Shown: positions 332-46,206 of the stretch, piece after piece
How the letters are laid out: every line of letters begins with the position of its first letter
Numbering within the stretch: the stretch's first letter is position 1
NCBI RefSeq assembly: GCF_002001175.1
Contig: NZ_MUNT01000001.1
Location: forward strand, 372,001 to 436,000
Reading direction: 5' to 3'
Length of the DNA: 64,000 nucleotides
From: Rhodanobacter sp. C03
GTDB lineage: Bacteria > Pseudomonadota > Gammaproteobacteria > Xanthomonadales > Rhodanobacteraceae
Made by a program: the position numbers and the translations under genes
Notes under the pieces: model-generated
The model's database searches: none
What the model was told of the DNA's origin: nothing
Seen by the model: the letters and a program-made list of their open reading frames with translations, nothing else

Positions 332-832
332 GTCGATTTGGGGTGGACCCTGAATCACGGATAAGCAGGGATGCGTCCAGGACCGGCTCGGCCGCAACAT
401 CATTCGGGGCCAGCGGAGCGCGGTTGGGGTGCTCCCACCTCTGTTCAAGGGGTGCTGGGGCATCAATCAGGCGGTTCATCGGCCTTAGTTGTGGGCTGGA
501 AATCGAACCCGTCTTCACAATATTCCGTAAGTTCTTGCTTGTACAAATTTTGTTGACAATCCGTAAAGCAGGCATGATAAAGGCCCACGGTAGCTGGCTG
601 GGTTGCGTGGGCTGATGGCCGACATGGCGCCATGACGCCGTCTTGGGTCGCAAGTTATGACCAGCCCGAGAGGTGTGTTACGTGTTCACGTAGCGTTATT
701 TGCCTGTTAGTATCGGCAAAGATCGGGAGTCGTGGGTCTGAAGTTCATCGGCCTGGGAGATCGGGCTAAGTCGCAGTTTTTGGGCAGAACGTTTTCTGAC
801 CCATGGTAATAATTAATCGGAGGGTGTCTTTT
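332..832. other. Intergenic region and long 5' leader of the TonB receptor
   Basis: This is the only stretch over 300 bases without a convincing gene. Its first half (332-552) shows no ORF with a ribosome site and no tRNA. From about 588 onward it should be transcribed as a leader of roughly 245 nt, given the promoter at 553-581 and the receptor start at 833. The leader contains a perfect 12-bp palindrome, CATGGCGCCATG at 623-634, and ends with a clear GGAGGG ribosome site at 819-824. A regulatory RNA role is possible but I recognise no riboswitch family. Confidence 0.5.
553..581 (+). promoter_or_regulatory. Sigma-70 type promoter upstream of the TonB receptor
   Basis: A perfect TTGACA -35 box (553-558) is followed by a 17-nt spacer and GATAAA (576-581) as -10 element. 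Transcription would start near 588, about 245 nt before the receptor start codon. Box quality and spacing are seen directly; that it is the promoter used is inferred. Confidence 0.6.
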
Positions 833-3772
833 ATGAAACTTGGGGTCACAAAACTTTCTTCGTCGGTTCGCCTGGCGCTTTCGCTGGGTGCCGTCATCGC
901 GGTTGGCGCATCGGGTACGGCATTTGCCCAGGACACCAGCAACCAGTCCACAACCAGTAGCAGTCAGCCTGACCAGCAGAAAGCGAAGTCGCTGCAGACC
1001 GTTGTGGTTACCGGCTCGCTGATCCGACGCGTTGATCTGGAAACGGCCAGCCCGGTCGTCACCATCGACCGCGCACAGATTCAGGCTACCGGCAAGATGA
1101 CGCTGGGCGACCTGGTTCAGCAGCTCCCGGCGATGACCGGCGGCGCCGTCAATCCGCAGGTCAACAACGGCGGCGGTACGGGTGGATCGAGCATCAACCT
1201 GCGCGGCCTGGGTTCGAAGCGCACGCTGATCCTGGTCGACGGCCAGCGTCTGCTGAGCAAGGATCCGAACGCCATTCCGGCGGACGCGGTCGAGCGTATC
1301 GAAGTGCTGCCCACCGGCGCATCGGCTACCTACGGTTCGGACGCCATCGGCGGCGTGGTGAACTTCATTCTGCGCAAGGACTACCAGGGCGCGCAGTTCA
1401 CCGCCAACGTTGGTGAATCCGATCACAATGATGGCGATCAAGCCGGCTACACCTTCACTTTCGGACAGTCGTCCGACAAGGGAAGCATCATGGCTGGCCT
1501 CTCCTACAACAAGCAGGATGGCGTCCTGGCGGGCAACCGCAGCTTCTCCAAGAATGCGCTGACCCTTGCCGGCAGCCAGGTTATCATCGGCGGTTCTTCG
1601 TCCACGCCAGTGGGCCGCATCCAGGTACCGGCAGGCAGCACTGCAGCAGCAGCGTTCGCGAATTGCCCCAGCGACTTCGTGTCGCTGAATCCGGGTGGCA
1701 ACAGCACCCAGATGACGCCGGCCAATTACCATTGCTATACGGCGGCCGACAAGTACAACTATTCGGCGGTCAACCTCGACATGACCCCGCAGGAGCGTAC
1801 CGGCGGTTTCATCAACGGTGAGTACCACCTCGGCGACCATGTATCGGCTTATGTGGATGCCATCTACGAGAAGACCTCGGCCAGCTTCCAGTTGGCACCG
1901 GCGGTATACGGCACCGATACCACAGGCGCCTCGCTCGATCCATTCAATGCGTTCAACCCGAATCAGGGCGATGCATACAACGGCAGCGCCTTGGGCTTCC
2001 GCTCGCGTCTGACCTCGGTCGGTCCGCGTTTTGCCTCGAGCAGCCGAACCGATGCCCAGATCAATACGGGCTTCCGTGGTGACTTCACGGTCTTCGACAA
2101 GAACTGGAACTGGGACGTTGGCCTCAACTATGGCCATGAGAGCATCGTCACCACGACGGGTGGCCTGGTCAACCAGACCGCCTTGTACACGGGTCCTTCC
2201 ACGCTGAATGCCGACGGTACGGCTACCTGCCCGGCCGGTGTGAGCGCGGTCGCGTGCCAGTTCAACCCGTTCGACATCAATGCTCCGGCCAGCGCCGCAG
2301 CAGCGCGCGCCGCCGTGGCGTCCGCCACCTCCAACCAGTACCTGATCGAAAAGACCTGGCACGCTGGCATCAGCGGCGAGCTGTTCAGTCTGCCGGCCGG
2401 TGCCGTGCAGCTGGCGGTCGGCGCCGAGTATCGTCAGGAAAGGGATGTGATCAATCCGGATACCGAGCTGTTGCTCGATCCGACCACCGGCAGCTGCATC
2501 CTGGGCAGCCAGTGCCTGGCCGGCCTGCAGGGTGGCTACAACACCAAGGATCTGTACGCCGAAGCGTTCATCCCGATCCTGAGCGGCCTGCCGGGCGTGC
2601 AGTCGTTGAACCTGACCATCGGCGACCGTTATTCGCGCGTCAGCACCTTCGGCAACACGAACAACTTCAAGTTCGCGTTGGAGTGGAAGCCGATCGACGA
2701 CTTGCTGCTGCGTGGCACGATGGAAGAAGTTTTCCGCGCGCCGAGCGTTTCGGAGCTGTTCTCGTCGGGCTCCGATGCGCCGAACATCCACAGCGATCCG
2801 TGTACCGGTTACACCGGTGCCCCGGCGGGTTCGCCGCTGGCACTGGCTTGTCAGTTCGTGCCCACCGATGGCAGCTTCGTAAACAGCTTCGTGCAGTCGC
2901 AGACGCAGGCTTCGGCAATCACCGAGGGCGCTTCAGTCGCAGGCTTCCCGATCAAGCCGGAGTCCGGCAAGTCGTATGACTTCGGTGCGGTATACAGCCC
3001 GTCGTGGGTGCCGGGTCTGTCCACCACGGTCGACCTGTGGCGCGTCAACCTGAACAACACCATCACCTCGATCGGCATGCAGAGCGTGCTCAATCTCTGC
3101 GCGTCTGGCCAGACGGTGTTCTGCCAGTACATCAAGCGCGTGCCGAGTGGTCAGAATGCGGGTCAGCTGCAACAGGGCTTTGTCGAGCCGACCGCCAACC
3201 TGGGTGCCTTGTCAACCGGCGGCGTCGATTTCTCGGCCAACTACAAGTTGCCGCAGTTCTCCTTCGGCCAGTTCAACATCGGCGTCAACGCGACCTACCT
3301 GAAGTACTACCAGCAGAACACGGGTTCGGACGTCTACAACAATGCCGGTCACCTCCTGCCTTACGGCTCAGCGCAGGCGGCAGCTTGCCCGGACAACGTC
3401 GGCGTCTGCCTGTTCCCGCGCTGGCGTGGTCAGGGTTTCGTGGATTGGCAGCAGGGTAACTGGAGTGCCTCGTGGCGCATGCGCTACATCGGTCGCTTCC
3501 AGAACGGTGGTCCGGCGTTTACCGAGCAGGATACGCAGCCGAACGGTGTGCCGGGTACCGTGCTCAAGTACGGCGCGACGGTCTACAACGACGTGTCGTT
3601 CGGCTACAACATCGAGCCGTACAACACGCGTGTGGATGTCGGCGTGAACAACCTGTTCGACAAGCAGCCGCCTATGCTGTACGCGAACAACACGCTCAAT
3701 GCCAATACCGATCCGAGCGATTTTGACCTGATGGGCCGCTATTTCTGGGCTCGCGTGACGGTCAAGTTCTAA
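833..3772 (+). CDS. TonB-dependent outer-membrane receptor
   Basis: This 979-residue outer-membrane beta-barrel receptor imports a ligand using energy from TonB-ExbBD. The start at ATG 833 is supported by GGAGGG eight bases upstream; a longer in-frame start at 803 lacks this. A signal peptide ends at about AFA-QD (residues 32-33). A Ser/Gln-rich linker precedes LQTVVVTGSLIRR (54-66), which opens the plug domain, and the plug carries INLRGLGSKRTLILVDGQR. The barrel closes with RYFWARVTVKF, ending in aromatic Phe as required for barrel assembly. No N-terminal STN signalling domain is seen. The type resembles the Xanthomonas/Caulobacter receptors for oligosaccharides or peptides. It is followed by an intrinsic terminator and then TPR-sulfotransferase genes. 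Substrate unknown. Confidence 0.92.
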   Translation: MKLGVTKLSSSVRLALSLGAVIAVGASGTAFAQDTSNQSTTSSSQPDQQKAKSLQTVVVTGSLIRRVDLETASPVVTIDRAQIQATGKMTLGDLVQQLPAMTGGAVNPQVNNGGGTGGSSINLRGLGSKRTLILVDGQRLLSKDPNAIPADAVERIEVLPTGASATYGSDAIGGVVNFILRKDYQGAQFTANVGESDHNDGDQAGYTFTFGQSSDKGSIMAGLSYNKQDGVLAGNRSFSKNALTLAGSQVIIGGSSSTPVGRIQVPAGSTAAAAFANCPSDFVSLNPGGNSTQMTPANYHCYTAADKYNYSAVNLDMTPQERTGGFINGEYHLGDHVSAYVDAIYEKTSASFQLAPAVYGTDTTGASLDPFNAFNPNQGDAYNGSALGFRSRLTSVGPRFASSSRTDAQINTGFRGDFTVFDKNWNWDVGLNYGHESIVTTTGGLVNQTALYTGPSTLNADGTATCPAGVSAVACQFNPFDINAPASAAAARAAVASATSNQYLIEKTWHAGISGELFSLPAGAVQLAVGAEYRQERDVINPDTELLLDPTTGSCILGSQCLAGLQGGYNTKDLYAEAFIPILSGLPGVQSLNLTIGDRYSRVSTFGNTNNFKFALEWKPIDDLLLRGTMEEVFRAPSVSELFSSGSDAPNIHSDPCTGYTGAPAGSPLALACQFVPTDGSFVNSFVQSQTQASAITEGASVAGFPIKPESGKSYDFGAVYSPSWVPGLSTTVDLWRVNLNNTITSIGMQSVLNLCASGQTVFCQYIKRVPSGQNAGQLQQGFVEPTANLGALSTGGVDFSANYKLPQFSFGQFNIGVNATYLKYYQQNTGSDVYNNAGHLLPYGSAQAAACPDNVGVCLFPRWRGQGFVDWQQGNWSASWRMRYIGRFQNGGPAFTEQDTQPNGVPGTVLKYGATVYNDVSFGYNIEPYNTRVDVGVNNLFDKQPPMLYANNTLNANTDPSDFDLMGRYFWARVTVKF

Positions 3773-3798
3773 GTCGCTTAATTAAACGTTAGTCTTGA

Positions 3799-3831
3799 TG
3801 GGCCGCGTGGATCACGCGGCCCATTTTTTTT
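3799..3831 (+). terminator. Intrinsic terminator after the TonB receptor
   Basis: TGGGCCGCGTG (3799-3809) pairs perfectly with CACGCGGCCCA (3813-3823) around a GAT loop, followed by eight T (3824-3831). It is a textbook rho-independent terminator. It lies only 7 bases before the ATG of the next gene, so it may also act as an attenuator for it. Confidence 0.9.
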
Positions 3832-3838
3832 GGACCCC

Positions 3839-5686
3839 ATGACTTCCAACGCCATTCCCCAGATCGCCGCAGCGCTGAACGCAGGCCAGCCACATCATGC
3901 GGAGCAGCTAAGTCGCACCGCACTGCTCGAGTTTCCGCAGGACGAGAGTCTCCTGTTGCTGCTGGCCATGAGCCTGCATTCGCAGGAACGACTCCAGGAA
4001 GCCTTGCCGATTTATGCTCAGTTGACGCAGCTGTTCCCAATGAGCAGTGAGCACTGGAACAATTACGGCATCGCCCTCGCAGCGGCCGGTGCGCCGGAAG
4101 ATGCCCAGCAGGCCTATTCGAAAGCAGTACAGATGGACCCAGGCAATCCGATGCCGAGGATTCACCTGGGACTGTTGATGATCCAGCGGCACGAGTATCT
4201 GGCCGCCCGCGTGGCGTTGCTGGACGCCTTTGAACTTGATCGGGAGTCGCCGCTGGCGCGTATTCATGCCGCCAGAGCCTGCAGTCTCTGCCAGGATTTC
4301 GAGGGTGCAAGGGAACTGCTTGGCCCGTGGCGGAACTGGCTGCCGTTGAATGACGACACGCTCCAGCTGGAGCTGGCCCAGGTACTGACCCTGCAGGACG
4401 ATATTCCCGCCGCCGCGGCATTGCTGGAGGACGTGCTTGCTTGGAAGCCTGGTTACACGGAAGTGAGACTCCTGCTGGCCAGTATCTACGAGCGGTTCAA
4501 TCGACTGACGGACGCGGAGGAACTGGTACTTCCGGTAGTTCGCATGGGGCCGGGCGTGCCCGATGCACAGCGGACGGAGGCATTGCATATCCTGGCCGGG
4601 CTGGCGCTTCGGAAGAAGGACCCGGTGGGTGCCAGGCAATTGCTGGAGCAATGCGGACCGCATGGTGACGATGACTTTGTTCATTATTTCGACCTCGGCG
4701 CAGCATGCGATCGGCAGGGCGATACGGATGCGGCGATGGCGGCCCTGCGAGAAGCACACCGCCGGCAGAGCCACGAATTCCAGTTCGCCTCGCCCGAATT
4801 TTTCGAGCCGGGGGCACACGCGTTGCCGACGGATGCTCCGCGCATCCCGGCGCTGCAGTATGCGCGCTGGCCGAAGCTGATCGCGCCCGAGGCGCACGAC
4901 TCGCCGGTTTTCGTGGTGGGCTTCCCGCGCTCGGGTACGACTCTGCTTGAGCAGATGCTGGACGCGCATCCCGGGCTGCAGTCCATGGACGAGAATCCTT
5001 TTTTCAGTCGTCTGGCACTGATACTGCGTCGACAAAATCCACGCATCCTGGATGACCTCGGCGTATTGCAGCAGTTCGATTGCGACGAATTGCGCAAGCG
5101 TTACCACGCCATGGTGGCCGAGCGCATTTCGCGCCGTTTGAACACGCAGCTGATCGACAAGAATCCGCTGAACATGCTGTGGCTGCCGATAATCCATCGC
5201 CTGTTTCCTGAGGCAAGGTTCATCCTGGCGTTGCGCCATCCATGCGATGTGATCCTCAGCTGCTACATGCAGAATTTCCGCTCCAGCATTCTGGCTGCCG
5301 CCTGTTCCAGCCTTGAACGGCTGGCGCAAGCCTACGTGCAGGCCATGACGACATGGCTTGAAGATGTGAGTATCTTCAAGCCATCCGTGATGGTGTCGCG
5401 CTACGAAGATCTGGTAACGGATTTTCCGTTACAGGCGACTCGCATCACGGAATTCCTGCAGCTGGCAGATGCCTCGCCGATGCTGGAGTTCGACCGGCAT
5501 GCGCGCAGCAAGGCTTACATTGGCACACCCAGCTACTCGCAGGTGATCGAGCCGGTGAACCGGAAAGGGCTTGACCGTTGGCATCGCTATCGTCGCCAGT
5601 TCGAGCCAATCCTGCCCATTCTCGAGCCCATGCTGAGGCATTGGGGCTATGACGACGGCACAGGCGGCAGCTCGTCTGCGGACTAG
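3839..5686 (+). CDS. TPR-domain sulfotransferase (first of three)
   Basis: The protein has 615 residues. The N-terminal half is a stack of tetratricopeptide repeats (about 1-320) and the C-terminal half is a PAPS-dependent sulfotransferase domain of the Sulfotransfer_3 type. The 5'-phosphosulfate loop reads VVGFPRSGTTLLEQ (near residue 362) and the 3'-phosphate-binding element is ALRHPCDVILSCY (near 466). Family members transfer sulfate from PAPS to carbohydrate, lipid or tyrosine acceptors; the acceptor here is unknown and the TPRs suggest protein binding. ATG 3839 sits 7 bases after the receptor terminator with only GGA as a weak ribosome site, so expression may depend on read-through from the receptor. 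No signal peptide is seen, which suggests cytoplasmic action. Confidence 0.85.
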   Translation: MTSNAIPQIAAALNAGQPHHAEQLSRTALLEFPQDESLLLLLAMSLHSQERLQEALPIYAQLTQLFPMSSEHWNNYGIALAAAGAPEDAQQAYSKAVQMDPGNPMPRIHLGLLMIQRHEYLAARVALLDAFELDRESPLARIHAARACSLCQDFEGARELLGPWRNWLPLNDDTLQLELAQVLTLQDDIPAAAALLEDVLAWKPGYTEVRLLLASIYERFNRLTDAEELVLPVVRMGPGVPDAQRTEALHILAGLALRKKDPVGARQLLEQCGPHGDDDFVHYFDLGAACDRQGDTDAAMAALREAHRRQSHEFQFASPEFFEPGAHALPTDAPRIPALQYARWPKLIAPEAHDSPVFVVGFPRSGTTLLEQMLDAHPGLQSMDENPFFSRLALILRRQNPRILDDLGVLQQFDCDELRKRYHAMVAERISRRLNTQLIDKNPLNMLWLPIIHRLFPEARFILALRHPCDVILSCYMQNFRSSILAAACSSLERLAQAYVQAMTTWLEDVSIFKPSVMVSRYEDLVTDFPLQATRITEFLQLADASPMLEFDRHARSKAYIGTPSYSQVIEPVNRKGLDRWHRYRRQFEPILPILEPMLRHWGYDDGTGGSSSAD

Positions 5687-5743
5687 CTGGCATGGCTGAT
5701 CGGGACACATTGCATCGTGGCGAAGTTGCCCGGCGAATGGGGC

Positions 5744-7309
5744 TTATCGCTCCGGGATCCGCAGCAGTTCCGGCAGGTAGGGTACGTAATCGCGCCAGCG
5801 TCCGATGGAGTGTGTATGCACCGGTTGGCGCACCTGCCAAGTACTGGCGGTACTGATGGCATGTGGTTCCTGCGCGGTAATGGGAGGATCCATGGCGGGC
5901 ACTCCGAGCCAGTCGTTCAGTGCGGCCATGATGTCTTCCGGCGCCGTCACCAGGTCTTCGTAAAGAACCGTGCGGAACGACGTCGGATAGCGGGCGTTCC
6001 AATGCGTGGCCAAGCGGCGGCAACCCCGTATCAGCGCGCCGATGTCGCCGAGATTGTAGGCATAGTCGTGTGCCCGATCATGAAAGGATTGCGACCACAG
6101 GGATAGCGCAGTATCGCGTGCATGGCGTTGGCAATGGATGATGCGCGCATTGGGCCATAGCGCCATGATCAGGTCGACATGCAGCAGGTTCAAAGGCTGT
6201 TTGTCGATGAACCAATGTGCATGGTGATCATCCTGGCGAAGCTGTGCCGCATAGACCGAGGCGGCCTGCTCGAACGGACCGCGCTCGTTGCGGTTCATCA
6301 GTGCAAGCCGCTGCGTCAGGATCTTGAGCCAGCCGAGTTCACCTTGATTTCGGACCTGCGGATGCCGTGCGATCAGTTCGGCCAGGAGCGTGGTACCGGA
6401 ACGCGGCACGCCGACGATGAATATCGGCACCCAGCCGACGGGTGCGGGTAGCGCGAACGGATACGGCCTGTCGGCGACGCGTGCCTCGATCGATCGGTTC
6501 CACTGCTTGCGCGACCAGGTGCTGGCAGCATGGGCCAGTGCGTTGGCCTCGTGCAGATAGCGTGCAGCCTGCGCATGGTCGGCAATATCGTCATGCGCCT
6601 TGCCGAGGGCGAACAGGGTGGTGATGCGCGCCTTGTCGCTCAGTCCGGGGCGGCTCAATACATCGTGGAACAGCGCGAAGTCGGGGTGACTGGAGTCCCG
6701 ATAGCGTTGCAGGCCGGACAGGCCTATCGGGATATTCCATTCCACCGCCTCGGGGCTATGGCCGAGCGCGAAGTTGTAGCGTTCGCGCACGCGTGGGAAT
6801 TCACCCAGCTGGATACCCAGCATGCCCGCATAGGCGTGTATGCGCGGGTCGGCCGAGCCGGTGGCAATCGCGGCCTCGCAGATGGTTGCGGCATCCTGTG
6901 GGCGGCCGTAGTCGTCGAGCGTCTCGACGGCCTGGATCACCGTGTCGGCATCTTGCCTGCCATGCTCGAACAGCTTCCGTATCGCTTCGGCGGCCGCCTG
7001 CATGCGGCCCTGCTCGCGCAGCAGACCGGCCAGCAGGAATGTGGCGCCGACGTGGTCAGGACGCTGCGCCAGCCAGTCGCGCAACAGGGCCTCGGCTTCC
7101 ACATGCTGTTGCATTTGCCAATACAGGCCGGCCAGACCCACACGCACTTCACCCGAGGCGGGATACCGCGCTGCCGCTGCCGTAAAGATGGCAAACGCGC
7201 CATCCAGATCGCCGCGCAGAATCAGGGCGCGGGCGCTCTCCAGCCACTCCTGTTCCGAGGCTTGCGCCAGCGCGGCGAGCCGTGTCGTGCTCGTGAGCGA
7301 GGCTGTCAT
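5744..7309 (-). CDS. TPR-domain sulfotransferase (second of three)
   Basis: This 521-residue protein has TPR-like helical repeats in the first ~250 residues and a Sulfotransfer_3 domain behind them. The PAPS loop is IVGVPRSGTTLLAEL near residue 300; the 3'-phosphate site is CQRHARDTALSLW near 393. The start at 7309 is chosen because its ATG overlaps the TGA of the upstream gene as ATGA (7309-7306), indicating translational coupling. The longer in-frame start at 7462 would lie deep inside the neighbour. It is convergent with the first sulfotransferase. The three proteins share architecture but differ clearly in sequence, so they are paralogues and not recent copies. Acceptor unknown. Confidence 0.85.
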   Translation of the reverse strand: MTASLTSTTRLAALAQASEQEWLESARALILRGDLDGAFAIFTAAAARYPASGEVRVGLAGLYWQMQQHVEAEALLRDWLAQRPDHVGATFLLAGLLREQGRMQAAAEAIRKLFEHGRQDADTVIQAVETLDDYGRPQDAATICEAAIATGSADPRIHAYAGMLGIQLGEFPRVRERYNFALGHSPEAVEWNIPIGLSGLQRYRDSSHPDFALFHDVLSRPGLSDKARITTLFALGKAHDDIADHAQAARYLHEANALAHAASTWSRKQWNRSIEARVADRPYPFALPAPVGWVPIFIVGVPRSGTTLLAELIARHPQVRNQGELGWLKILTQRLALMNRNERGPFEQAASVYAAQLRQDDHHAHWFIDKQPLNLLHVDLIMALWPNARIIHCQRHARDTALSLWSQSFHDRAHDYAYNLGDIGALIRGCRRLATHWNARYPTSFRTVLYEDLVTAPEDIMAALNDWLGVPAMDPPITAQEPHAISTASTWQVRQPVHTHSIGRWRDYVPYLPELLRIPER

Positions 7310-8883
7310 GGTCGCCAGGGTGGCAGCTCGAGCGCTTTCCTGAGCGGATCGAGCAAGTTGCCATAACGGGGCGCACGTGCCATGTCCTGGCGCAGTGGCT
7401 GGCGTACCTGGGTGGCGCTGGGCGAACGCACTTCGCGTTGGTTCTCGTGGAAGTGCACGCATGCGTCTTCAAACGGCAGCCCGCAGAAATCCAGCAGTTC
7501 GCGGATATGCGCCTCCGGTTCGGCAAGCAATGCCTCGTAACTGTGCTCGCGTACGGAGATGGGGTGCAGCGTGGTCCAATGCCGCACGCTGCGGTCGAAG
7601 TCGCGCCAGAAGCGGGCCAGGTCATCGAAGGTGCGCGTGTAGCCGCTGCTGCTGTCCAGGCGCTGGCGATAGCACGAGAAACATGTTTCCAGCGGGTCGC
7701 GGCGGCAGACCACGATACGTGCGCCCGGCAGCATGGCGCGGATGGCGCCGATATAGATCCAGTTGTTGGGCAGCTTGTCAGTGAAGATGGGGCGCCGTCG
7801 TCTCCAATGCGCGGTGCGCTCCAGATAACGACGGCCCAACCGTTCCCAGTCGGACGGTTGCATGTCGCCGACCCATTGTGGAAACGGCTTGCCACGGCGG
7901 CGCGATTCCTCAGCCAGCACGTAGGGCAGATCGGGCAACTCGCCGGCGCCTTCCACCGACGAATGCGAGGCAAGGATCTGTTCGACTAAAGTAGAGCCTG
8001 CACGTGGCAGGCTGGCGATGAAAATGACCTCGCGCCCAAGCGGTTCCGGCGCACCGGCAGGTGGTGGATCGAACACTGCGCCTATGGCCTCGACATTGTC
8101 GGAGAACTTTTCGCCATGCCAAGCCTGACGGTGGAGTGCAATGGCATTGGCCTGCTCCAGTGCGGCAAGCGAATCGGCATACTCGCCGCTGTCATCGAGC
8201 GCCTTGGCCAAGGCAAAGCCGATTGCAATGCGGTCGTCATCGCTTGTCGCGGGGAGCTGCAGCGCCGAGCGCATGCATTTGATGTCATCTTCGGTAAAGC
8301 GCTGTGTCTTGAGATCAGCCAGTCCCCACCAGGCGATGCCGGCCGCCGGATATTGGGCGATCAGCTGGCGGTATTCGGTGGCAGCTTCGTCAAGCTGTCC
8401 TCGCGTGCGCAGCATATCGGCGAGCAGGGCGCGCGCGGCGGCATGGTTGGGTGCGAGCGAGACAGCCCGCTGCAGCGCATCCACGGCCTCGTCATTGCGC
8501 ACGGATTTGGTCAGCATTACACCGAGGTTGTACCAGGCGATGACCAGGCCAGGCTGAAGATTGCAGGCAACGCGCAGTGCATCGATCGCCGATTCATAGT
8601 CGCCTGCCGTGCCCAGCAGCGAACCGAGGGTATTGTGATAGAGCGGATCCTGCGGGCGCTGCGCCAGTGCCCGACGGATCACTCGCAACGCATCGAGATG
8701 CTGGCCGCGCAAACTATGAATACCTGCCTGCAAACGCAACACTTCGGGATGGTTCGGGTATACCGCCAGCGCGCGAGACAGTTGGCGATCGGCATCATCA
8801 AGGCGTCCCCCATCGAGTGCCTGTCCTGCGGACATGACATATTGGATGGCGGCGGGATCCAGCCCGTGTAAACGTGGATTCAT
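7306..8883 (-). CDS. TPR-domain sulfotransferase (third of three)
   Basis: The protein has 525 residues. TPR motifs occupy about 1-265, with regular units such as LDALRVIRRALAQRPQDP. The sulfotransferase domain carries FIASLPRAGSTLVEQ near residue 290 as PAPS loop, with the RAGS variant, and VVCRRDPLETCFSCY near 391. TTG 8886 directly precedes ATG 8883; ATG is taken as start, and no strong ribosome site is visible. It is the first gene of a two-gene minus operon, overlapping the second sulfotransferase by ATGA. It is divergent from the hydroxylase-like gene at 9056, so the two may share a control region. Confidence 0.85.
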   Translation of the reverse strand: MNPRLHGLDPAAIQYVMSAGQALDGGRLDDADRQLSRALAVYPNHPEVLRLQAGIHSLRGQHLDALRVIRRALAQRPQDPLYHNTLGSLLGTAGDYESAIDALRVACNLQPGLVIAWYNLGVMLTKSVRNDEAVDALQRAVSLAPNHAAARALLADMLRTRGQLDEAATEYRQLIAQYPAAGIAWWGLADLKTQRFTEDDIKCMRSALQLPATSDDDRIAIGFALAKALDDSGEYADSLAALEQANAIALHRQAWHGEKFSDNVEAIGAVFDPPPAGAPEPLGREVIFIASLPRAGSTLVEQILASHSSVEGAGELPDLPYVLAEESRRRGKPFPQWVGDMQPSDWERLGRRYLERTAHWRRRRPIFTDKLPNNWIYIGAIRAMLPGARIVVCRRDPLETCFSCYRQRLDSSSGYTRTFDDLARFWRDFDRSVRHWTTLHPISVREHSYEALLAEPEAHIRELLDFCGLPFEDACVHFHENQREVRSPSATQVRQPLRQDMARAPRYGNLLDPLRKALELPPWRP

Positions 8884-8965
8884 CAAAGATCTCTGGTCAG
8901 AACAGGACGTGGCTTCCGTGACGCATCATCCTGCGGTTGCAAGGACGAGCCCACAGTTTTTCGAA

Positions 8966-8981
8966 CATCATTATTATGATG
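8966..8981. promoter_or_regulatory. Inverted repeat between divergent sulfotransferase and hydroxylase genes
   Basis: CATCAT (8966-8971) and ATGATG (8976-8981) form a perfect inverted repeat around TATT in the only AT-rich part of this divergent spacer. It could be an operator or overlap a promoter; function is inferred from position only. Confidence 0.3.
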
Positions 8982-8992
8982 CCTAGTACGTG

Positions 8993-9025
8993 CCGGCAGT
9001 GAGGCTGACTGCCGGGTTTCTTCTT
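8993..9025 (+). terminator. Terminator-like hairpin in the leader of the hydroxylase gene
   Basis: CCGGCAGT (8993-9000) pairs perfectly with ACTGCCGG (9008-9015) and is followed by GTTTCTTCTT. No gene on this strand ends just upstream, so the hairpin is in the 5' leader of the gene starting at 9056 and could act as an attenuator. Confidence 0.4.
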
Positions 9026-9055
9026 GGACAAAACCCGTTCGGCGGTAATCAGGCG

Positions 9056-10378
9056 ATGAACAGTGAGCTTCACGAGAGTGCCATGACGTTGCGCAAAATG
9101 GCATACGACGGGCTGCAGCACGGTGATGTCGTGCTGGCTGAACAGCACTTCGCGCGGCTGCTTGAGATAGTTCCCACTGACATGGAAGCGCTGCAATTTG
9201 TCGCCAGCCGCTATCTGGTCCGTGGGGAAGCCATGCGCGCCGTGGCCATGCTGCTTGTCGCCGACCAGGCACGCCCGAACGACCCGAATACACTGCACCA
9301 GTTGGGTACGGCGCAGATGGCGACTGGAGACCTGCATGGTGCGGTGGCCAGCCTGCAGCGAGCAATTGAGCTGGCGCCGCACATCTTCATGGCGCGCCTG
9401 CGTCTGGGCATGGCACTGGAACGGCTGGGGGAGGCGCACAATGCACTGGTGGCTTATTTCGGCGCGGTAAATACCGCACAGGTGCAAGGTCGCTGGCTGG
9501 GTGACTCGACTACGGCGCCAAGTATCCGCGACGCGGTCAAGCATGCGATCCGATTCATTGATGTCGAGCGCCCCCGGCTTTTCCACCAAGTGCTCGAACC
9601 TCTGCAGCAGCGTTACGGCCGCTCCGAACTTTCGCGTGTGGAAGATTGCCTTGCGATTTATCTCGGCGAGAAGGCACTGTCTCCGCCTGATCCACGACAG
9701 AAACCGAAGTTCCTCTATTTCCCTGGCGTGCCAAGCCAGGCGTACTACGCAAGCGAACGCTTTCCCTGGCACCGGGAGCTGGAGGCCGCCACCGGGATGA
9801 TTCGGGAGGAGTTGCGAACGGTGCTGGCGGAAAATCAACCGTTGCAGCCGTTTCTCGGCATCAACTCGCCCGCGGAACTCGATGGATACCTGCGCGCATC
9901 CGGCAACCAGACAGCGGCGTGGGATGCGTACTTCTTCTATCGCCACGGTGTGCGCTACGACGAACAATGCGCGAGCTGCCCACGCACTTCCGGCCTACTG
10001 GATGCACTGCCACTGGCGCGCATTCGTGATCACGCGCCAGAGACGCTTTATTCGGTGCTGCGCCCGGGTACGCATATCCTGCCGCATCGCGGTGTCACCA
10101 ACACGCGCCTGGTCACGCATTTGCCATTGATCGTGCCACCGGATTGCGCCATCCGGGTGGGCGGCGAGATTCACGAATGGGAGGAGGGACGCTGCGTCAC
10201 TTTCGATGACACGTTCGAACACGAGGCGTGGAACAACAGCAGCGAGACGCGTGTGGTGTTGATTCTTGACAGCTGGAATCCCGACCTGAGCGAAGCCGAG
10301 CGTGCCGCAGTGACCGATCTGGTTGAAGCGATTGGCGATTTCAATCGCAGTACCGAAGTGGCCACTCCACAAGGCTGA
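9056..10378 (+). CDS. TPR plus aspartyl/asparaginyl beta-hydroxylase-domain protein
   Basis: This 440-residue protein has TPR-like repeats (about 15-130) and a C-terminal Asp/Asn beta-hydroxylase domain (2-oxoglutarate/Fe(II) oxygenase, cupin fold). The metal ligands appear to be H344 in ILPHRGVTN and H389 in TFEHEAWNNS, 45 residues apart. H-R-G in place of H-x-D matches the AspH family, which holds iron with two His. R399 in ETRVVLILDSW would bind 2-oxoglutarate. The family hydroxylates Asp/Asn in proteins or modifies lipids (LpxO-like). The start is ATG 9056; an upstream GTG at 8990 would place the hairpin inside the gene. Context with sulfotransferases and a TonB receptor suggests joint modification of a surface or secreted substrate. 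Confidence 0.82.
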   Translation: MNSELHESAMTLRKMAYDGLQHGDVVLAEQHFARLLEIVPTDMEALQFVASRYLVRGEAMRAVAMLLVADQARPNDPNTLHQLGTAQMATGDLHGAVASLQRAIELAPHIFMARLRLGMALERLGEAHNALVAYFGAVNTAQVQGRWLGDSTTAPSIRDAVKHAIRFIDVERPRLFHQVLEPLQQRYGRSELSRVEDCLAIYLGEKALSPPDPRQKPKFLYFPGVPSQAYYASERFPWHRELEAATGMIREELRTVLAENQPLQPFLGINSPAELDGYLRASGNQTAAWDAYFFYRHGVRYDEQCASCPRTSGLLDALPLARIRDHAPETLYSVLRPGTHILPHRGVTNTRLVTHLPLIVPPDCAIRVGGEIHEWEEGRCVTFDDTFEHEAWNNSSETRVVLILDSWNPDLSEAERAAVTDLVEAIGDFNRSTEVATPQG

Positions 10379-16132: not shown

Positions 16133-17403
16133 ATACGCCGGCGAGTGCCATTGCGCCCGAGCTGCAACGTTATGCCGCGCTCGACCAGCGCCTGCTGGCG
16201 GCTGTGCGTGGCATCCATATCCTGCCGACAGTGGCGTGGCCGGCTTCGCTGGAGGACCGCATGATCGCGGCCTATGGCAACGGCCAGTTCACGCTGCCGG
16301 AAGTGACTTACACGCGACCGGATCTTGGCGCCGCACGCGCCGAACTGGCCGTGATCGAGCACGAAGCCGGCGACAACGATCCGTTGGGTGACTACCTGCG
16401 TCGCACCGCCGAATCGTGGCGCATCGCGGCGGAAATGCTGGAGGCGGTGGGCACGGCGTGCGTTACCGCGCCTTCGATCGCGCTGTACGGCAAGCCGGGC
16501 GATCTGATTCCCGGCAGCCAGCGCAGCAACCTCGATGCAGCGCATTACTTCGTCGAACTGTCCGACGAGCTGGGCGCGGACCTGCTGGCCGACGACAGCA
16601 GCGTGGACATGTCGGCAAGTCAGCTGCGCGATGAGCTGACGAAGACGCTGGATGATTTCTTCGGTGCCGGCATGATCAAGGTGGAGGTGGATCCTGAGCT
16701 GACCGCCAAGGCAGCGGCCGGCGCCACCCGCATCCGACTGCGCGACGGCACCAGTTTCAGCGAGTACGACCGGCACCAGCTGCTCGCGCACGAGGCGTTT
16801 GTGCACTCGCTGACCGCACTGAACGGACGCCAGCAGCCGCTGCTGGCCTCACTGGCGCGCACCTCGCCACGGGTCACTGCGACCCAGGAGGGCCTGGCGG
16901 TATTCGCCGAGCTGATGTCCGGCGCGATCGACATTGCCCGGCTCAAGCGGATCAGCTTGCGCATCCTGGCGATCGACATGGCGCTGAACGGCGCCGATTT
17001 CGTCGAGGTCTACAAGTACTTCAGCGCCTGCGGGCAGAGCGTGTCTGACAGCTTCCACTCGGCCCAGCGGGTGTTCCGCGGCGTGCCACTGACCGGCGGC
17101 GCGGCGTTCGCCAAGGACAATGTGTATCTGTCCGGCCTGCTCACCGTGCACACCTTCTTCCGCTGGGCGTTCAAGCAGCAGCGGATGGATCTGTTGCGCC
17201 ACCTGTTTGCCGGCAAAATGACCCTGCACGACGTGATCGCGCTGCAGCCGCACTTCGCGTCCGGCGCGATCCTGCCGCCGCGCTGGCTGCCGCCGTGGAT
17301 GCAGCATGTCCACGGGCTGGCCGGCAAGCTGGCGTTTTCGGTGTTCATCAACGGCATCCACATGAACCGGGTGCATGGCGACGAGCTGCTGCAAAGCGTC
17401 TAG
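16129..17403 (+). CDS. QEGLA-family (DUF1704) putative metallohydrolase
   Basis: This 424-residue protein carries the zinc motif HEAFVH (H221-E222-H226, HExxxH type) and the family signature TQEGLA (252-257), whose Glu is the likely third ligand. The family was long called flavohemoglobin expression-modulating QEGLA protein; its eukaryotic relatives (MATCAP/KIAA0895) are tubulin tyrosine carboxypeptidases. A peptidase role in bacteria is therefore plausible but the substrate is unknown. The start overlaps the preceding membrane-protein gene by ATGA. The C-terminus has hydrophobic patches (WLPPWMQ) but no clear membrane helix. Confidence 0.85.
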   Translation: MNTPASAIAPELQRYAALDQRLLAAVRGIHILPTVAWPASLEDRMIAAYGNGQFTLPEVTYTRPDLGAARAELAVIEHEAGDNDPLGDYLRRTAESWRIAAEMLEAVGTACVTAPSIALYGKPGDLIPGSQRSNLDAAHYFVELSDELGADLLADDSSVDMSASQLRDELTKTLDDFFGAGMIKVEVDPELTAKAAAGATRIRLRDGTSFSEYDRHQLLAHEAFVHSLTALNGRQQPLLASLARTSPRVTATQEGLAVFAELMSGAIDIARLKRISLRILAIDMALNGADFVEVYKYFSACGQSVSDSFHSAQRVFRGVPLTGGAAFAKDNVYLSGLLTVHTFFRWAFKQQRMDLLRHLFAGKMTLHDVIALQPHFASGAILPPRWLPPWMQHVHGLAGKLAFSVFINGIHMNRVHGDELLQSV

Positions 17404-17516
17404 CGGCGCCCACGGCAACGCGGAAACGGGTCGGTTCGGGCCGCCCCGGTGCTAACATCACAGATGGTCAACCGCCTGTGGCGGGTACCGCCCCCTCCCT
17501 CAACAAATACACATCC

Positions 17517-19808
<2,292 letters not shown>

Positions 19809-19817
19809 CGTGACTTG

Positions 19818-19844
19818 ACCGCGCCCCGGCCGGCGGGGCGCGGT
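19818..19844 (+). terminator. GC-rich hairpin after maeB, probable terminator
   Basis: ACCGCGCCCC (19818-19827) pairs perfectly with GGGGCGCGGT (19835-19844) around a 7-base loop, 10 bases after the maeB stop. The T tract is poor (GTTCGATCC), so termination strength is uncertain. Confidence 0.55.
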
Positions 19845-19985
19845 GTTCGATCCATGCGCCGGCGAATGGGCGTCCGTTTGGTGCTGGTGCGCCGCGGCGG
19901 CTAAACTCTGCTGTTGACCCGCCGCTGCCCCGACGGCGGGAGTCCCCTCAAGTCTGGCGCTGCAACGGTGCCGCGGAGAATCTTC

Positions 19986-22679
19986 ATGGATCAGCTCGAC
20001 GATATCCTCAACCAGGACATCGACCCCACCGAAACCCGCGAGTGGATGGACTCGCTCGATGCGGTGATCCAGCACGACGGCACCGAACGCGCCCACTTCC
20101 TGCTCGAACGGATGGTCGATTCGACCCGGCGTTCGGGCGGCTACCTGCCGTTCAATCCGACCACCGAATACGTCAACACCATCGCGCCCAGCCAGGAGGC
20201 CAAGAGCCCCGGCGACGCCGCGATGGAATGGCGCATCCGCACCCTGATCCGCTGGAACGCAATGGCGATGGTGGTGCGTGCGAACCGCAAGCCGGGCGAA
20301 CTGGGCGGGCATATCGCCAGCTTCGCTTCGAGCGCGACGCTGTACGACGTTGGTTTCAATCACTTCTGGCGTGCGCCGAGCGCCGACCACCCTGGCGATC
20401 TGGTATTCCACCAAGGCCATTCCAGTCCGGGTATCTATGCGCGCTCGTTCCTCGAAGGCCGTCTGGCCGAGGACCAGATGGATCTGTTCCGCATGGAAGT
20501 GGTCGGCAAGGGCCGCGCGCTGTCGTCGTATCCGCATCCGTGGCTGATGCCGGACTACTGGCAGGTGCCGACAGTGTCGATGGGACTGGGTCCGATCCAG
20601 GCGATCTACCAGGCGCAGTTCTTCAAGTATCTGGAGCACCGCGGCCTGGTGCCGAAGAGCGACCGCAAGATCTGGTGCTTCCTCGGTGACGGCGAAACGG
20701 ACGAGCCGGAGTCGCTCGGTGCGATCTCGCTGGCCGGTCGCGAAGGCCTGGACAACCTGATCTTCGTGATCAACTGCAACCTGCAGCGCCTCGACGGTCC
20801 GGTGCGCGGCAACGGCAAGATCATCCAGGAGCTGGAAGGCGTATTCCGCGGCGCCGGCTGGAACGCGATCAAGCTGGCCTGGGGCAGCTACTGGGATCCG
20901 CTCCTCGCGCGTGACACCAAGGGCGTGCTGCGCAAGCTGATGATGGAAACCGTCGACGGCGAATACCAGGCATGCAAGGCGTTCGGCGGCGCGTATACGC
21001 GCGAGCATTTCTTCGGCAAGTATCCGGAGACGCGCGAGATGGTCGCCAACCTGAGCGACGACGACATCTGGCGGCTGAATCGCGGCGGCCACGATCCGCA
21101 CAAGGTCTACGCCGCGTATCACGCGGCGTCGAACACCCAGGGCATGCCCACGGTGATCCTGGCCAAGACCGTGAAGGGTTACGGCATGGGCGCGGCCGGC
21201 GAGTCGCAGAACCCGACCCACCAGCAGAAGAAGCTCGACGAGGAGGCGGTGCGGCATTTCCGCGACCGTTTCCAGATTCCGATCAGCGACGACCAGCTGA
21301 AGGATGTGCCGTACTTCCACCCGGGCAAGGACTCGCCGGAAGTGCAGTACATGCTGGAGCGTCGCAAGGCGCTCGGCGGCTTCCTGCCGCAGCGCCGGCG
21401 CAAGGCCGAGGCGAAGTTGAAGACGCCGGAGCTGGCCGCGTTCGAGCAGATCACCAAGGGCACCGGCGAGCGCGAGATCTCGACCACGATGGCGCTGGTA
21501 CGTGGCATCAACCTGCTGCTGCGCGACAAGCAGCTCGGTGAGCGCGTGGTGCCGATCGTCGCCGACGAGGCCCGCACGTTCGGCATGGAAGGCATGTTCC
21601 GCCAGATCGGCATCTATGCGCCGTTCGGCCAGAAGTACAAGCCGCAGGACTCCGACCAGCTGCTGTACTACCGCGAGGACCAGAAGGGCCAGGTGCTGCA
21701 GCAGGGCATCAGCGAGGCCGGCGGCATGGCTTCGTGGATGGCCGCGGCGACCAGTTATTCGATCAGCAACCAGGCGATGCTGCCGTTCTTCATCTACTAC
21801 TCGATGTTCGGTTTCCAGCGCATCGGCGACCTGTGCTGGGCGGCCGGTGACATGCGCTCGCGCGGCTTCCTGATCGGCGGCACTGCCGGTCGCACCACGC
21901 TCAATGGCGAGGGTCTGCAGCACGAGGACGGCCATTCGCACCTGATGTCCGGCACGATCCCGAACGTGAAGTCGTACGATCCGACGTTCTCGTATGAGGT
22001 CGCGGTAGTTCTGCAGGACGGCACGCGCCGGATGATGCAGGAGCAGGAGGACATCTACTACTACATCACCGTGATGAACGAGAACTACAGCCATCCCGAC
22101 CTGCCGCAAGGCGTCGAGGACGGCATCATCAAGGGCATGTATTTGTTCAAGGATGGCGGCAAGCCGAAGAAGGGCGAGCCGCGCGTGCAACTGCTCGGCT
22201 CGGGCACGATCCTGCGCGAGGTGATTGCGGCGGCCGAACTGCTGGAGAAGGACTTCGGCGTGAAGTCCGACATCTGGTCGTGCCCCAGCTTCATCGAGCT
22301 GCGTCGCGACGGTTTCGATGCCGAGCGCTGGAACCGTCTGCACCCGGAAGCGGAGCAGCGCGTGCCGTACATCACCGGGCTGCTCGATGGTCGTCAGGGT
22401 CCGGCGATCGCCGCCACCGACTACGTGCGCGAATTCGCCGACCAGGTCCGCGCGTTCATGCCCGACGGCATGCGTTACACCGTGCTCGGCACGGATGGCT
22501 ACGGCCGTTCGGACACGCGTGCGCACTTGCGCGAGTTCTTCGAGGTCGATCGTTACTGGATCGCGCATGCCGCGCTGGCCGCACTGGCGAAGGACGGCAA
22601 GGTCAACGCCAAGGACGTCAGCCGCGCGATCAAGGAATACAAGCTCGATCCGGACAAGCCGAATCCGCAGACGGTCTGA
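19986..22679 (+). CDS. aceE: Pyruvate dehydrogenase E1 component (homodimeric type)
   Basis: This 897-residue thiamine-diphosphate enzyme decarboxylates pyruvate and transfers the acetyl group to lipoyl-E2. The TPP motif is FLGDGETDEPESLG through NLIFVINCNLQRLDG. The N-terminus has the E2-binding region and the C-terminal third the transketolase-like domains. GGAG lies seven bases before ATG 19986. Length fits the E. coli enzyme (887). It stands 23 kb from aceF-lpdA (46207-49361) rather than in one operon. A bidirectional terminator follows. Confidence 0.96.
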   Translation: MDQLDDILNQDIDPTETREWMDSLDAVIQHDGTERAHFLLERMVDSTRRSGGYLPFNPTTEYVNTIAPSQEAKSPGDAAMEWRIRTLIRWNAMAMVVRANRKPGELGGHIASFASSATLYDVGFNHFWRAPSADHPGDLVFHQGHSSPGIYARSFLEGRLAEDQMDLFRMEVVGKGRALSSYPHPWLMPDYWQVPTVSMGLGPIQAIYQAQFFKYLEHRGLVPKSDRKIWCFLGDGETDEPESLGAISLAGREGLDNLIFVINCNLQRLDGPVRGNGKIIQELEGVFRGAGWNAIKLAWGSYWDPLLARDTKGVLRKLMMETVDGEYQACKAFGGAYTREHFFGKYPETREMVANLSDDDIWRLNRGGHDPHKVYAAYHAASNTQGMPTVILAKTVKGYGMGAAGESQNPTHQQKKLDEEAVRHFRDRFQIPISDDQLKDVPYFHPGKDSPEVQYMLERRKALGGFLPQRRRKAEAKLKTPELAAFEQITKGTGEREISTTMALVRGINLLLRDKQLGERVVPIVADEARTFGMEGMFRQIGIYAPFGQKYKPQDSDQLLYYREDQKGQVLQQGISEAGGMASWMAAATSYSISNQAMLPFFIYYSMFGFQRIGDLCWAAGDMRSRGFLIGGTAGRTTLNGEGLQHEDGHSHLMSGTIPNVKSYDPTFSYEVAVVLQDGTRRMMQEQEDIYYYITVMNENYSHPDLPQGVEDGIIKGMYLFKDGGKPKKGEPRVQLLGSGTILREVIAAAELLEKDFGVKSDIWSCPSFIELRRDGFDAERWNRLHPEAEQRVPYITGLLDGRQGPAIAATDYVREFADQVRAFMPDGMRYTVLGTDGYGRSDTRAHLREFFEVDRYWIAHAALAALAKDGKVNAKDVSRAIKEYKLDPDKPNPQTV

Positions 22680-41467: not shown

Positions 41468-44400
41468 CTACTGCAGCGTCACCGGCCGCCGGTTGTCGCT
41501 GGAAACGCGGTCGATCAGTTCGTTGTACGGATCGATGCCGGCATCGAACGGCTTGCTGTCGACGGTCACGGTGATCGTGCTGTCGCCGTTCGCCACCATC
41601 TGCTTCTTCAGGTACAGCGGCTTGCCATCCTTGCCGTCGACGGGCGCAGCGAACACGCCGATGTCGATCGGGATATCCGGCATGGCGTCGGTTTCCTTGC
41701 CGGTGCCGTCGACGTAGACCTTGCCGGCGTGCACCTTCATGGTCACTTCGTACTTGCCGTCCGGCAGCTTTTTCGCGGTGGCCTCGGTCACGCGATTGTC
41801 GAACAGGGTGATCTTCCAGAAGAAGTCATCTAGCAGCGGCTGCCACTTCGGCCCGGCTGCCTTGGCCAGTGCGTCCATGAATTCCTGCGAGGTGGTGTAC
41901 GGTGGTTGCTGGAAACCCTTGTCGATGAGGAACTGCTTGAGCATCGCATCGAGATTTTTCTCGCCGATGTAATCCTGCAGCGCATAGAACACCAGCGAAC
42001 CCTTGCGGTAATGGATGTACTGCTGGTTCTCCACCTTCGCCAACGGTTCTTCGGCCAGCTTCTCGGTGGCACGACCCACCAGATAATTGTCCAGTTCGTA
42101 CTTCAGGAACTTGTGCATCTGGTCGGCGCCGTACTTCTGCTTCATCACCATCAGCGCGGAGTACTGCGCCAGCGATTCGCTGAGCATGGTCGAACCCTGC
42201 ATGTTGGCGCCGATCACCCGGTGCGCCCACCACTGGTGGGCCACTTCATGAGCGGTGACGTAATAGACATAGTCGATCTTCGACTTGTCACGCAGGTCGG
42301 CAATGAAGCCGATCGACTCGGAGAACGGAATCGTGTTGGCGAACGACTGCGCGAAAGCGGCGTAGTTCGGGAATTCCAGGATGCGCAGCTGGTGGAACTG
42401 GTATGGCGTGTAGTTCGCGTCGTAGTAGTCCAGCGCGTCCTTCGCACCCTGGATCATCCGGTCCACGTTCCATGCATGTGCCGGGTTGTAGTACACCGAA
42501 ACATCCACACCCTTCCACATCTCGTGTTTCACGGCATAGCGTGCCGAGAGGTAGGAGAAGAACGGCAACATCGGCTGGTCCATGACGTAATGGAAATAGT
42601 GCCGCCCGTTCGCGGTCCATTCCTTCTGCAGGTAACCCGGTGCCACCGCGATCTGGTCGGCGGCGGTGGATACCGTGGTATCGAAGCTGATCCAGTCGGC
42701 GTCGTTGCTGAGGTACGTGTTCGCGCGCGCCTTCTCGTCGCCGAGTTTTGGCATCCGCGGCACCTCACCCTTCAGGTCGTATTTGCGGCGGTCGTTGCGA
42801 TCGGTGATCTGCGCTTCCGTCTGGTAGCCGAACTGCGGCAGCACACCGCTGTTGAAGAAGGTTCCGTTATAGGCGAGGAAGCTGCCTTCCGGACTGTTGG
42901 TGAAGCCCTTCGGCGCATATTCCAGGTCGAAGTCGAAGTTCATCGACGCGCCCGGTGCCAGCGGCGTTTTCAGCTTGTAGATGGTGTAGCCGAGATCCTT
43001 GTCCACGCTGACCGTGTCGTGCGGCGCGAAATCCAGCGACTTCAGCGTGAAGCCGTCGGTGTAATTCACATGCAGTTCGCTGATCGGCGTGTCGTGCTTG
43101 TTGACCAGCGTGTAGTGGCCGCGGATCTCCAGCTTGCGCTGGTAGGGATGGATGTCGACATCGGCCTTTACTGCGGTGATGCGCGGCTGCGGCAGATCCT
43201 TGTACTTCGCGTATTTCTTCTCGTAGTCGGCGCGTTGTTTCAACTTGTCGCTGCTGCTCAGGTAATGGTTGAGCACGTTGGTGTTGTAGTAGATCCACGC
43301 GCCGCTGCCGACGAAGGCAAGCAGGCCGAGCGCCAGTGCAATCTTCGTCGGTGCGTGCAGCCGTGCGCGCGCTTCGCGCATCCGCTCGCGCCACACCTGC
43401 CCGGTGCCACGCACCCAGAACAGTGCGGCCAGCACCAGCAATACCACTGCGCAACTCGCCCAGTAGAAGTCGAACCACAGCGCGGCCTTGAGGAAATGCC
43501 CGAAGCCGTTCATGTCCGAATACGGCGTGGATGACACGTTGCCGTAGTTGTACAGGTTCTGTTCCCAATGCAGCAGGCCGAAGCCGATCTGGCAGACGAA
43601 CCACAGGATGGTCAGCAGGTAACCGAGGAACTTGTTGTTCGACAGCACCTGCAGGAACAGCGCCAGTGCCGCCAGCAACGCGAACGGGACCGTATCCAGC
43701 GTCAGTGTCTCCAGATACAGGCCCAGCTCCAGATGCGTGTAGCCGTGTGCCAGCTGCCAGCCGATACCGACCAGCGAGCCGACCAGCTGGAACACCACGA
43801 TCACCGCCAGCAGCGCACCGAGCTTGGCGGTCAGCGGGATCCAGTCCGGCAGTGGGAACGCGTCGGTGACCTCGGCCGAGCGTTGGCTGCGCTCGCGCCA
43901 CACCAGTTCGCCGGCGTAGAAAGTGATGATGATGAACAGCAGCCACTGGAAGCTGCCACGCACGCCGTCCAGTACCTGATGGGTGACCGGCCACGTCGCG
44001 GTGCCATAGATCTGTCCGGACAGCGTCAACACACCAAACAGATTGGCCAGGCCCAGCGCCAGCATGATCAGGAACGGCACGCCACGCAGCACGCCGAACG
44101 TGTCGAATGCGAACTGCGTGCGTAGTTGCAGCAGGTGCGCACCAAGGTTGTCGGCCAGACGCACCTTGGGCAGCGCCAGCGTGGCGTGACCGGCCTGCGG
44201 GCGCAGCATCGGCGGCTCCGCACGCTTCTTGCGCCGCGGCAACTGCAGGCCTTCGCGGTTCGGCCGGAACAGTGCAAACGTGGCGCCGAACATGGCAAGG
44301 CTGACGCCGATCCACAGCAACCGGTTGAACAACAGCACGCCAGTCAGTGCGGGCAGCTCGTGATTGGACTGATACGCCGACCAGTAGCGGGTGGCCAGCG

Positions 44401-45049: not shown

Positions 45050-45093
45050 ATTCCCGTCCCTGTAATGGAAGACTGCCGAAACAGCGGCTGGCG

Positions 45094-45978: not shown

Positions 45979-46206
45979 GGCTTGCTTCCTTGTACCGCCT
46001 GGCGCGGTGTTGGCTGAGTTCCAGATTAGGGCATGGGTTGGGCGTGTGCGTGCGCTCAAGGTCATGCATACGCGTGCGCATGGTTGGCGTTGGCGCGGGC
46101 TTGCGCTGCTTTTGTGCAATACGAATCGGGCACGGCTTCGCTATGATTGAGGTTTCTACGCGTCCGCCATCCCCGAGCGGCACGCCTCGCCATCGCAGGA
46201 GTCATC

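Follow-up and report, generated by a model that had tools for sequence, protein, structure and literature searches.

The genome of Rhodanobacter sp. C03 contains, near one end of a 64,000-nucleotide stretch that we analysed as a whole (the window; contig NZ_MUNT01000001.1, positions 372,001 to 436,000), a gene for a TonB-dependent receptor (TBDR) followed by genes for three sulfotransferases (STs) and one Asp/Asn beta-hydroxylase-type oxygenase (AspH). All four enzymes carry tetratricopeptide repeats (TPRs), a repeat type that as a rule mediates protein binding. What do these enzymes act on, and does the receptor belong with them? We tentatively favour, at somewhat less than even chances, a recurrent cassette in which the TPR-armed enzymes would act in the cytoplasm on the chain of the adjacent TBDR, adding hydroxyl and sulfate groups before its export. 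The proposal rests chiefly on the recurrence of the linkage in six families of the class and on the nearest solved relatives of the enzymes.

The block and its encoded proteins

A first-pass annotation had read five genes between positions 833 and 10378, namely a TBDR, three TPR-STs and a TPR-AspH. Pfam agrees with each assignment: Plug and TonB_dep_Rec barrel in the receptor, Sulfotransfer_3 in three proteins, Asp_Arg_Hydrox in the last, and TPR matches in all four enzymes. The features are as follows.

833 to 3772, plus strand: TBDR, 979 amino acids (Pfam Plug and TonB_dep_Rec barrel; AlphaFold2; Foldseek)
3839 to 5686, plus strand: ST-A, TPR-Sulfotransfer_3 protein, 615 amino acids (Pfam; AlphaFold2; like tyrosylprotein sulfotransferases, TPSTs, by sequence and fold)
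5744 to 7309, minus strand: ST-B, TPR-Sulfotransfer_3 protein, 521 amino acids from Met 7309, open frame to 7462 (Pfam; TPST1 best PDB match)
7306 to 8883, minus strand: ST-C, TPR-Sulfotransfer_3 protein, 525 amino acids (Pfam; weak PDB matches)
9056 to 10378, plus strand: TPR-AspH, TPR plus Asp/Asn beta-hydroxylase-type 2-oxoglutarate (2OG) oxygenase, 440 amino acids (Pfam; human AspH match)
553 to 581, plus strand: sigma-70-like promoter TTGACA-N16/17-TGATAA(A) ahead of the TBDR, largely conserved (upstream alignment of the window and 14 loci)
Left boundary of the block: phosphorylase-superfamily gene, read as AMP nucleosidase
Right boundary of the block: glutaredoxin-rhodanese gene

The likely starts lie at 833 (TBDR), 3839 (ST-A), 7309 (ST-B), 8883 (ST-C) and 9056 (AspH). 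ST-A begins 66 bases downstream of the TBDR on the same strand, the start of ST-B overlaps the stop of ST-C in an ATGA, and the spacing of the block genes is 57 to 172 bases. The block does not form a single operon, since ST-B and ST-C are encoded on the minus strand; it runs as TBDR-STA (+), STC-STB (-) and AspH (+).

The 3'-phosphoadenosine-5'-phosphosulfate (PAPS) loops that had been read in the three STs (FPRSGTT, VPRSGTT and LPRAGST) are present, and the C03 genome codes for an APS kinase, so that PAPS can likely be made. ST-A matched Sulfotransfer_3 (PF13469) at 8.7e-34. In its AlphaFold2 model (pLDDT 93.5, pTM 0.88) a TPR superhelix is followed by the sulfotransferase domain, and the top Foldseek ranks comprised O-GlcNAc transferase (OGT), SPINDLY and consensus TPRs, plus tick and human TPSTs. 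Foldseek placed the catalytic domain on TPST structures with TMt values of 0.63-0.71; among the PDB matches of this domain (E up to 0.01), seven TPST sequences came first, followed by two polyketide-pathway STs. By phmmer, ST-A matched TPSTs at 4.4e-16 to 2.2e-12. Its residues R363, E384, K440 and S564 occupy invariant columns of a 39-row ST alignment and are aligned with the Arg, Glu, Lys and Ser of TPSTs, which we take to be catalytic. The model thus predicts for ST-A an OGT-like TPR superhelix with a TPST domain attached. OGT and SPINDLY resemble ST-A in having a TPR superhelix that feeds a protein-modifying catalytic domain, whereas their donor is a glycosyl compound and their catalytic fold differs. 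The TPSTs (human TPST1/2 and the tick enzyme) share with ST-A a Sulfotransfer_3-type domain and the four positions, and are its closest solved relatives. Unlike them, the block STs are bacterial, have a long N-terminal TPR superhelix, show no signal anchor by hydropathy and occur as several paralogues per receptor. The best PDB match of ST-B was TPST1 (1.1e-7); those of ST-C were weak, with the CurM sulfotransferase first (5e-8) and then TPST1 (5.7e-5).

The AspH has its PF05118 domain behind a TPR-type front end, much as human AspH carries a two-His 2OG oxygenase domain behind helical repeats, but it lacks the endoplasmic reticulum anchor of the human enzyme. The two proteins matched at 1.6e-31, with both His and two Arg conserved. 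The earlier numbering of the two-His site (H344 and H389) is right, given a start at Met 9056; the His are presumably the iron ligands and the two Arg the 2OG ligands. Judged by sequence relationship, the nearest solved relatives, TPSTs for ST-A and ST-B and human AspH for the oxygenase, support a protein-type chemistry, ST-C being ambiguous.

The TBDR consists of a hydrophobic N-terminus, a Ser/Thr/Gln-rich linker, a plug and a beta-barrel with long Cys-containing outer loops (AlphaFold2 pLDDT 81.4; Foldseek matches PfeA, Cir and BtuB). As far as hydropathy alone tells, its N-terminus is signal-peptide-like and the enzymes have no such start. The TBDR is also the sole non-enzyme gene of the block, and among the five genes Pfam found none for a precursor, for leader processing, for export or for core biosynthesis. 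From these features we infer that the receptor chain itself may be modified in the cytoplasm; the enzymes would act there, since PAPS and 2-oxoglutarate are made there. The TPR superhelices would hold the unfolded polypeptide in the manner of OGT, AspH would put a beta-hydroxyl on Asp or Asn, and the STs would sulfate Tyr, Ser or Thr residues, or the hydroxyl just made by the oxygenase. Outer loops marked in this way would gain negative charge, which may tune ligand capture or hide the receptor from phages and bacteriocins.

A DKYNY stretch in the receptor was considered as an ST-specific mark and rejected: block receptors and L022 retain it with small variants, but the linked receptors of L023 do not. 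In L060, a tandem pair of block-type receptors (3031-6060 and 6970-9930) stands ahead of one enzyme set.

Recurrence of receptor and enzymes

The linkage of receptor, TPR-ST and AspH, proposed as a check by the first-pass annotation, holds beyond close relatives. The block AspH (P0005) was searched in 184 genomes of the class, C03 included, of which 11 matched at 1e-15. Full-length TPR-AspH was found in six genomes of six families (C03, G010, G015, G152, G214 and G243), with the TPR front seen by Pfam in all six (weakest in G015, TPR_19 at 2.8e-7). All six clusters contain a TBDR plus at least one TPR-ST, at an AspH-to-receptor distance of 0.1 to 6.7 kb. Besides the C03 block, they are arranged as follows, some with further genes between those listed.

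G010 (L074): AspH-ST-TBDR, with Hsp33 and a methyltransferase among the genes in between
G015 (L066): TBDR-AspH-TPR-2OG oxygenase-AspH domain-Sulfotransfer_2-ST
G243 (L142): AspH-TBDR-ST-ST
G214 (L143, L149): three STs-TBDR-2OG oxygenase-AspH
G152 (L141, L150): three STs-TBDR-2OG oxygenases-ST-AspH/ST fusion-AspH-2OG oxygenases

The G152 cluster thus assembles around one TBDR four TPR-STs, an AspH-ST fusion, the TPR-AspH and four 2OG-Fe(II) oxygenases, which Pfam sorts into three kinds. In G015 the TBDR-AspH pair is adjoined by a third type of TPR-armed enzyme, TPR plus 2OG-FeII_Oxy_5 (L066:6140-7966, minus strand). This linkage in six families supports, as gene context, the earlier suggestion of a modification system tied to the receptor; as to the substrate, which that suggestion had left between proteins and glycans, the TPST and AspH relatives favour protein-type chemistry, apart from ST-C.

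Could receptor and enzymes be mere passengers, that is, fast-turnover surface genes and enzyme genes that share insertion hot spots without joint work? We consider this very unlikely. The product of chances for a receptor within 10 kb of all six TPR-AspH genes is 1.2e-6, calculated from per-genome receptor counts with a distance picked after the fact, and the order TBDR-STA is fixed in all 24 loci of the scan described below. None of five TPR-less AspH genes (G192, G208, G182, G013 and C03) had a receptor in the fetched stretch, a contrast that is weak because TBDRs number just 2 to 5 in each of the four genomes other than C03; weak ST matches lay near two of the five, and G285, whose contig is too short, was left out of this count. 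On a tree of 28 receptors (19 linked; 9 unlinked, 8 from C03 and 1 from G015; the L065, L073 and L141 receptors left out), the linked label needs 4 changes compared with 7.8 in shuffles, of which 1 in 500 was as low. At least three of the four changes are forced by well-supported branches, so that the association is clustered, yet not one inherited neighbourhood. In favour of passenger linkage, extra STs are gained or lost within the block (L047, L048 and L058), and the link of TPR-STs to receptors depends on the lineage.

ST-A was used to scan genome contigs, which yielded 24 loci; they belong to Dyella, Rhodanobacter, Dokdonella and to metagenome bins labelled Lysobacteraceae or Proteobacteria. 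A TBDR lies directly upstream of ST-A in each (L053 is cut by the contig edge and retains just the 3' end of the TBDR). Three loci (L051, L052 and L064) resemble a paralogous module of the C03 genome at C11:195 kb, and the same strains each gave a block locus. At thresholds of 47% identity and 70% coverage, the remaining 21 block loci contained ST-B in 18 cases, ST-C in 20 and AspH in 15; two of the six without AspH (L042 and L056) stop at a contig edge. Five loci (L053, L056, L057, L062 and L063; L053 and L056 are short contigs) had none of the three tested left-flank genes, suggesting that the TBDR-ST core also sits at other chromosomal places. A further ST follows AspH in seven loci (L041, L045, L046, L049, L055, L059 and L061); in L045 it is a TPR-less Sulfotransfer_3 protein by Pfam (16511-17455, minus strand) directly downstream of AspH, with similar genes in six other Dyella loci. 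The window has at this place the glutaredoxin gene, not an ST. In a mirror-tree comparison the receptor and ST genes correlated mutually at 0.61-0.87, and with the left flank at 0.21-0.38 for the ST genes and 0.47-0.64 for the receptor.

The C03 genome as a whole gave 17 Sulfotransfer_3, 26 Plug and 3 Asp_Arg_Hydrox matches. Its long-frame STs form nine clusters, five of them close to a TBDR (binomial 5e-4, given 26 receptors in 3.86 Mb). These clusters were built from 15 STs of at least 500 amino acids, excluding an AspH-ST fusion (615 amino acids) and a 423-residue frame; how to group them, and the distance of 5 kb, were decided once the list had been seen. Pfam was used to check TPR arms in the three STs of the block and in a single ST from each of L023, L025 and L026.

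Outside the block, Rfam at its gathering threshold found nothing in the window except a distant S-adenosylhomocysteine (SAH) riboswitch (RF01057, 61218-61293, minus strand), and ARAGORN found no tRNA. Two very long open frames, encoding 1722 and 1571 amino acids, lie at 17400-22568 and 41468-46183, both on the minus strand.

Receptor, ligand or envelope as the substrate

Natural fusions of AspH-type and Sulfotransfer_3 domains occur in the C03 genome (C15:315884-317371; L031:4684-6522), in L048 and in G152. Homologues of the C03 fusion lie within the block of L047, L048 and L058, as one of the extra STs between ST-A and ST-B (by Pfam in L048), and also in the G152 cluster. These fusions suggest that one substrate can undergo both hydroxylation and sulfation. 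A more specific scheme, which we hold to be improbable, is a two-step mark on the outer loops of dedicated TBDRs before export, with hydroxylation by the TPR-AspH and then sulfation of the new hydroxyl or of Tyr by TPR-armed TPST-like enzymes; it would amount to a receptor coding system with swappable enzyme sets.

The strongest rival is a peptide ligand, in view of methanobactin and of a lasso-type list of genes that includes ST and AspH. Here the enzymes would act on a metallophore, a ribosomal peptide or another, that the cell secretes and takes up again via the receptor; we regard this as rather unlikely. According to PMC3621798, methanobactin operons encode, like the block, a TonB-dependent transporter (MbnT) and a sulfotransferase (MbnS), with threonine sulfonation; the paper assigns MbnS to PF00685, its passages on these operons name no AspH, and neither the precursor MbnA nor MbnB/MbnC is found among the block genes. 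In PMC10040529, consecutively numbered gene clusters list a lasso-peptide B2 protein, two sulfotransferases and an aspartyl beta-hydroxylase. Several oxygenases of the G152 cluster also resemble tailoring enzymes. Against ligand tailoring, the five block genes include no gene for a precursor, its processing, its export or a core biosynthesis, as mentioned above, and the gaps between them measure only the 57 to 172 bases given. No conserved small ORF was seen upstream of the TBDR in the aligned upstream regions (no such search covered the gaps within the block). One candidate, a small peptide precursor immediately ahead of the TBDR, was rejected, the small ORFs shared there being read as the end of the nucleosidase gene or as antisense.

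Modification of envelope glycans or lipids, with the enzymes acting on lipopolysaccharide, capsule or ornithine lipid beside a receptor for related material, appears improbable as well. P0005 scored 113 bits against OlsC, a lipid hydroxylase, which equals its human AspH score, and 61 bits against LpxO, both far below the cut-offs. Sulfotransfer_3 enzymes also act on glycans, and long-frame STs exist without receptors. However, no glycosyltransferase or lipid gene stands among the five block genes, protein-tyrosine sulfotransferases lead the PDB relatives of ST-A and ST-B, and OlsC and LpxO have, to our knowledge, no TPR arms.

A number of observations weigh against modification of the receptor chain by a dedicated cassette, beginning with the equal scores of OlsC and human AspH. 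The outer loops of the TBDR contain no acidic-tyrosine cluster, and the single Tyr with at least three acids within five residues is located in a barrel strand. The EGF-type target consensus of AspH, C-x-[DN]-x4-[FY]-x-C, was found in 0 of 37 TBDRs, a further difference from human AspH. Among 25 close receptors, the outer loops are variable, the last one excepted. The AspH domain of the fusions belongs to a different subgroup, with an HxD motif. The TPR arms of AspH are closer to other AspH arms than to those of their cluster mates, in a comparison that ranked only AspH and Oxy_5 arms; the idea that all four enzymes dock on a common partner thus finds no support in its narrow sense, and neither do TPR arms as cluster-specific docking tags, as AspH arms follow enzyme type. 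In the mirror-tree, AspH tracks the flanking genes (0.66-0.73) as well as the block (0.62-0.74), co-function is inseparable from co-transfer, and co-transfer alone could explain the rest.

The survey of TPR-STs adds to these points. Sulfotransfer_3 was found in 12 of 27 genomes of a class sample, from which 14 regions of mostly long-frame STs were taken. In G015 a TBDR lies beside a TPR-ST in 6 of 6 regions, and in G010 at both places fetched (one receptor by Pfam barrel plus plug search). No plug match lies within 78 kb of another long-frame ST in G010, the third (C33), G009 has a receptor plug in one of three regions and none in the other two, and the custom profile found a plug in 0 of 3 regions of G013 and G008, a G013 plug lying about 9.5 kb from one ST region, just beyond the fetched stretch. 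In a phylum sample, ST-A matched 36 of 120 genomes at 1e-20; 17 of 20 TPR-ST regions, some on short contigs, were without a plug domain, and three had one (G114, G111 and G099). This last number is perhaps an undercount, since the custom plug profile missed the L073 barrel that Pfam detects. The regions without a receptor indicate that TPR-STs also work elsewhere, more broadly than in the cassette, and that the receptor link is lineage-dependent.

Precedents and significance

The RaxST-RaxX system of Xanthomonas differs from the block, as it presumably consists of a peptide signal with its own export system, in which receptor, TPR arm and AspH have no part. According to PMC4216712 and PMC6637879, it provides bacterial tyrosine sulfation of an exported polypeptide. 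PMC10932419 describes sulfotransferase genes of a gut bacterium annotated asst, one of them near a TonB gene. Searches of the open-licence PMC literature turned up no description of the cassette as a unit. Its parts are known families, and bacterial polypeptide sulfation and receptor-linked tailoring have precedents; for their combination with TPR arms and AspH we found none.

Should the ligand turn out to be the substrate, the cassette would flag receptors that likely import a peptide bearing sulfate and hydroxyl groups, and the hunt for this ligand would be directly testable. If, as we tentatively favour, the receptor is the substrate, the block would represent a dedicated bacterial sulfation and hydroxylation system for outer-membrane proteins, and a new route of surface remodelling, built from relatives of the enzymes by which animals mature their secreted proteins. 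Such a system would then bear on the ligand choice of uptake receptors and on the evasion of phages and bacteriocins.

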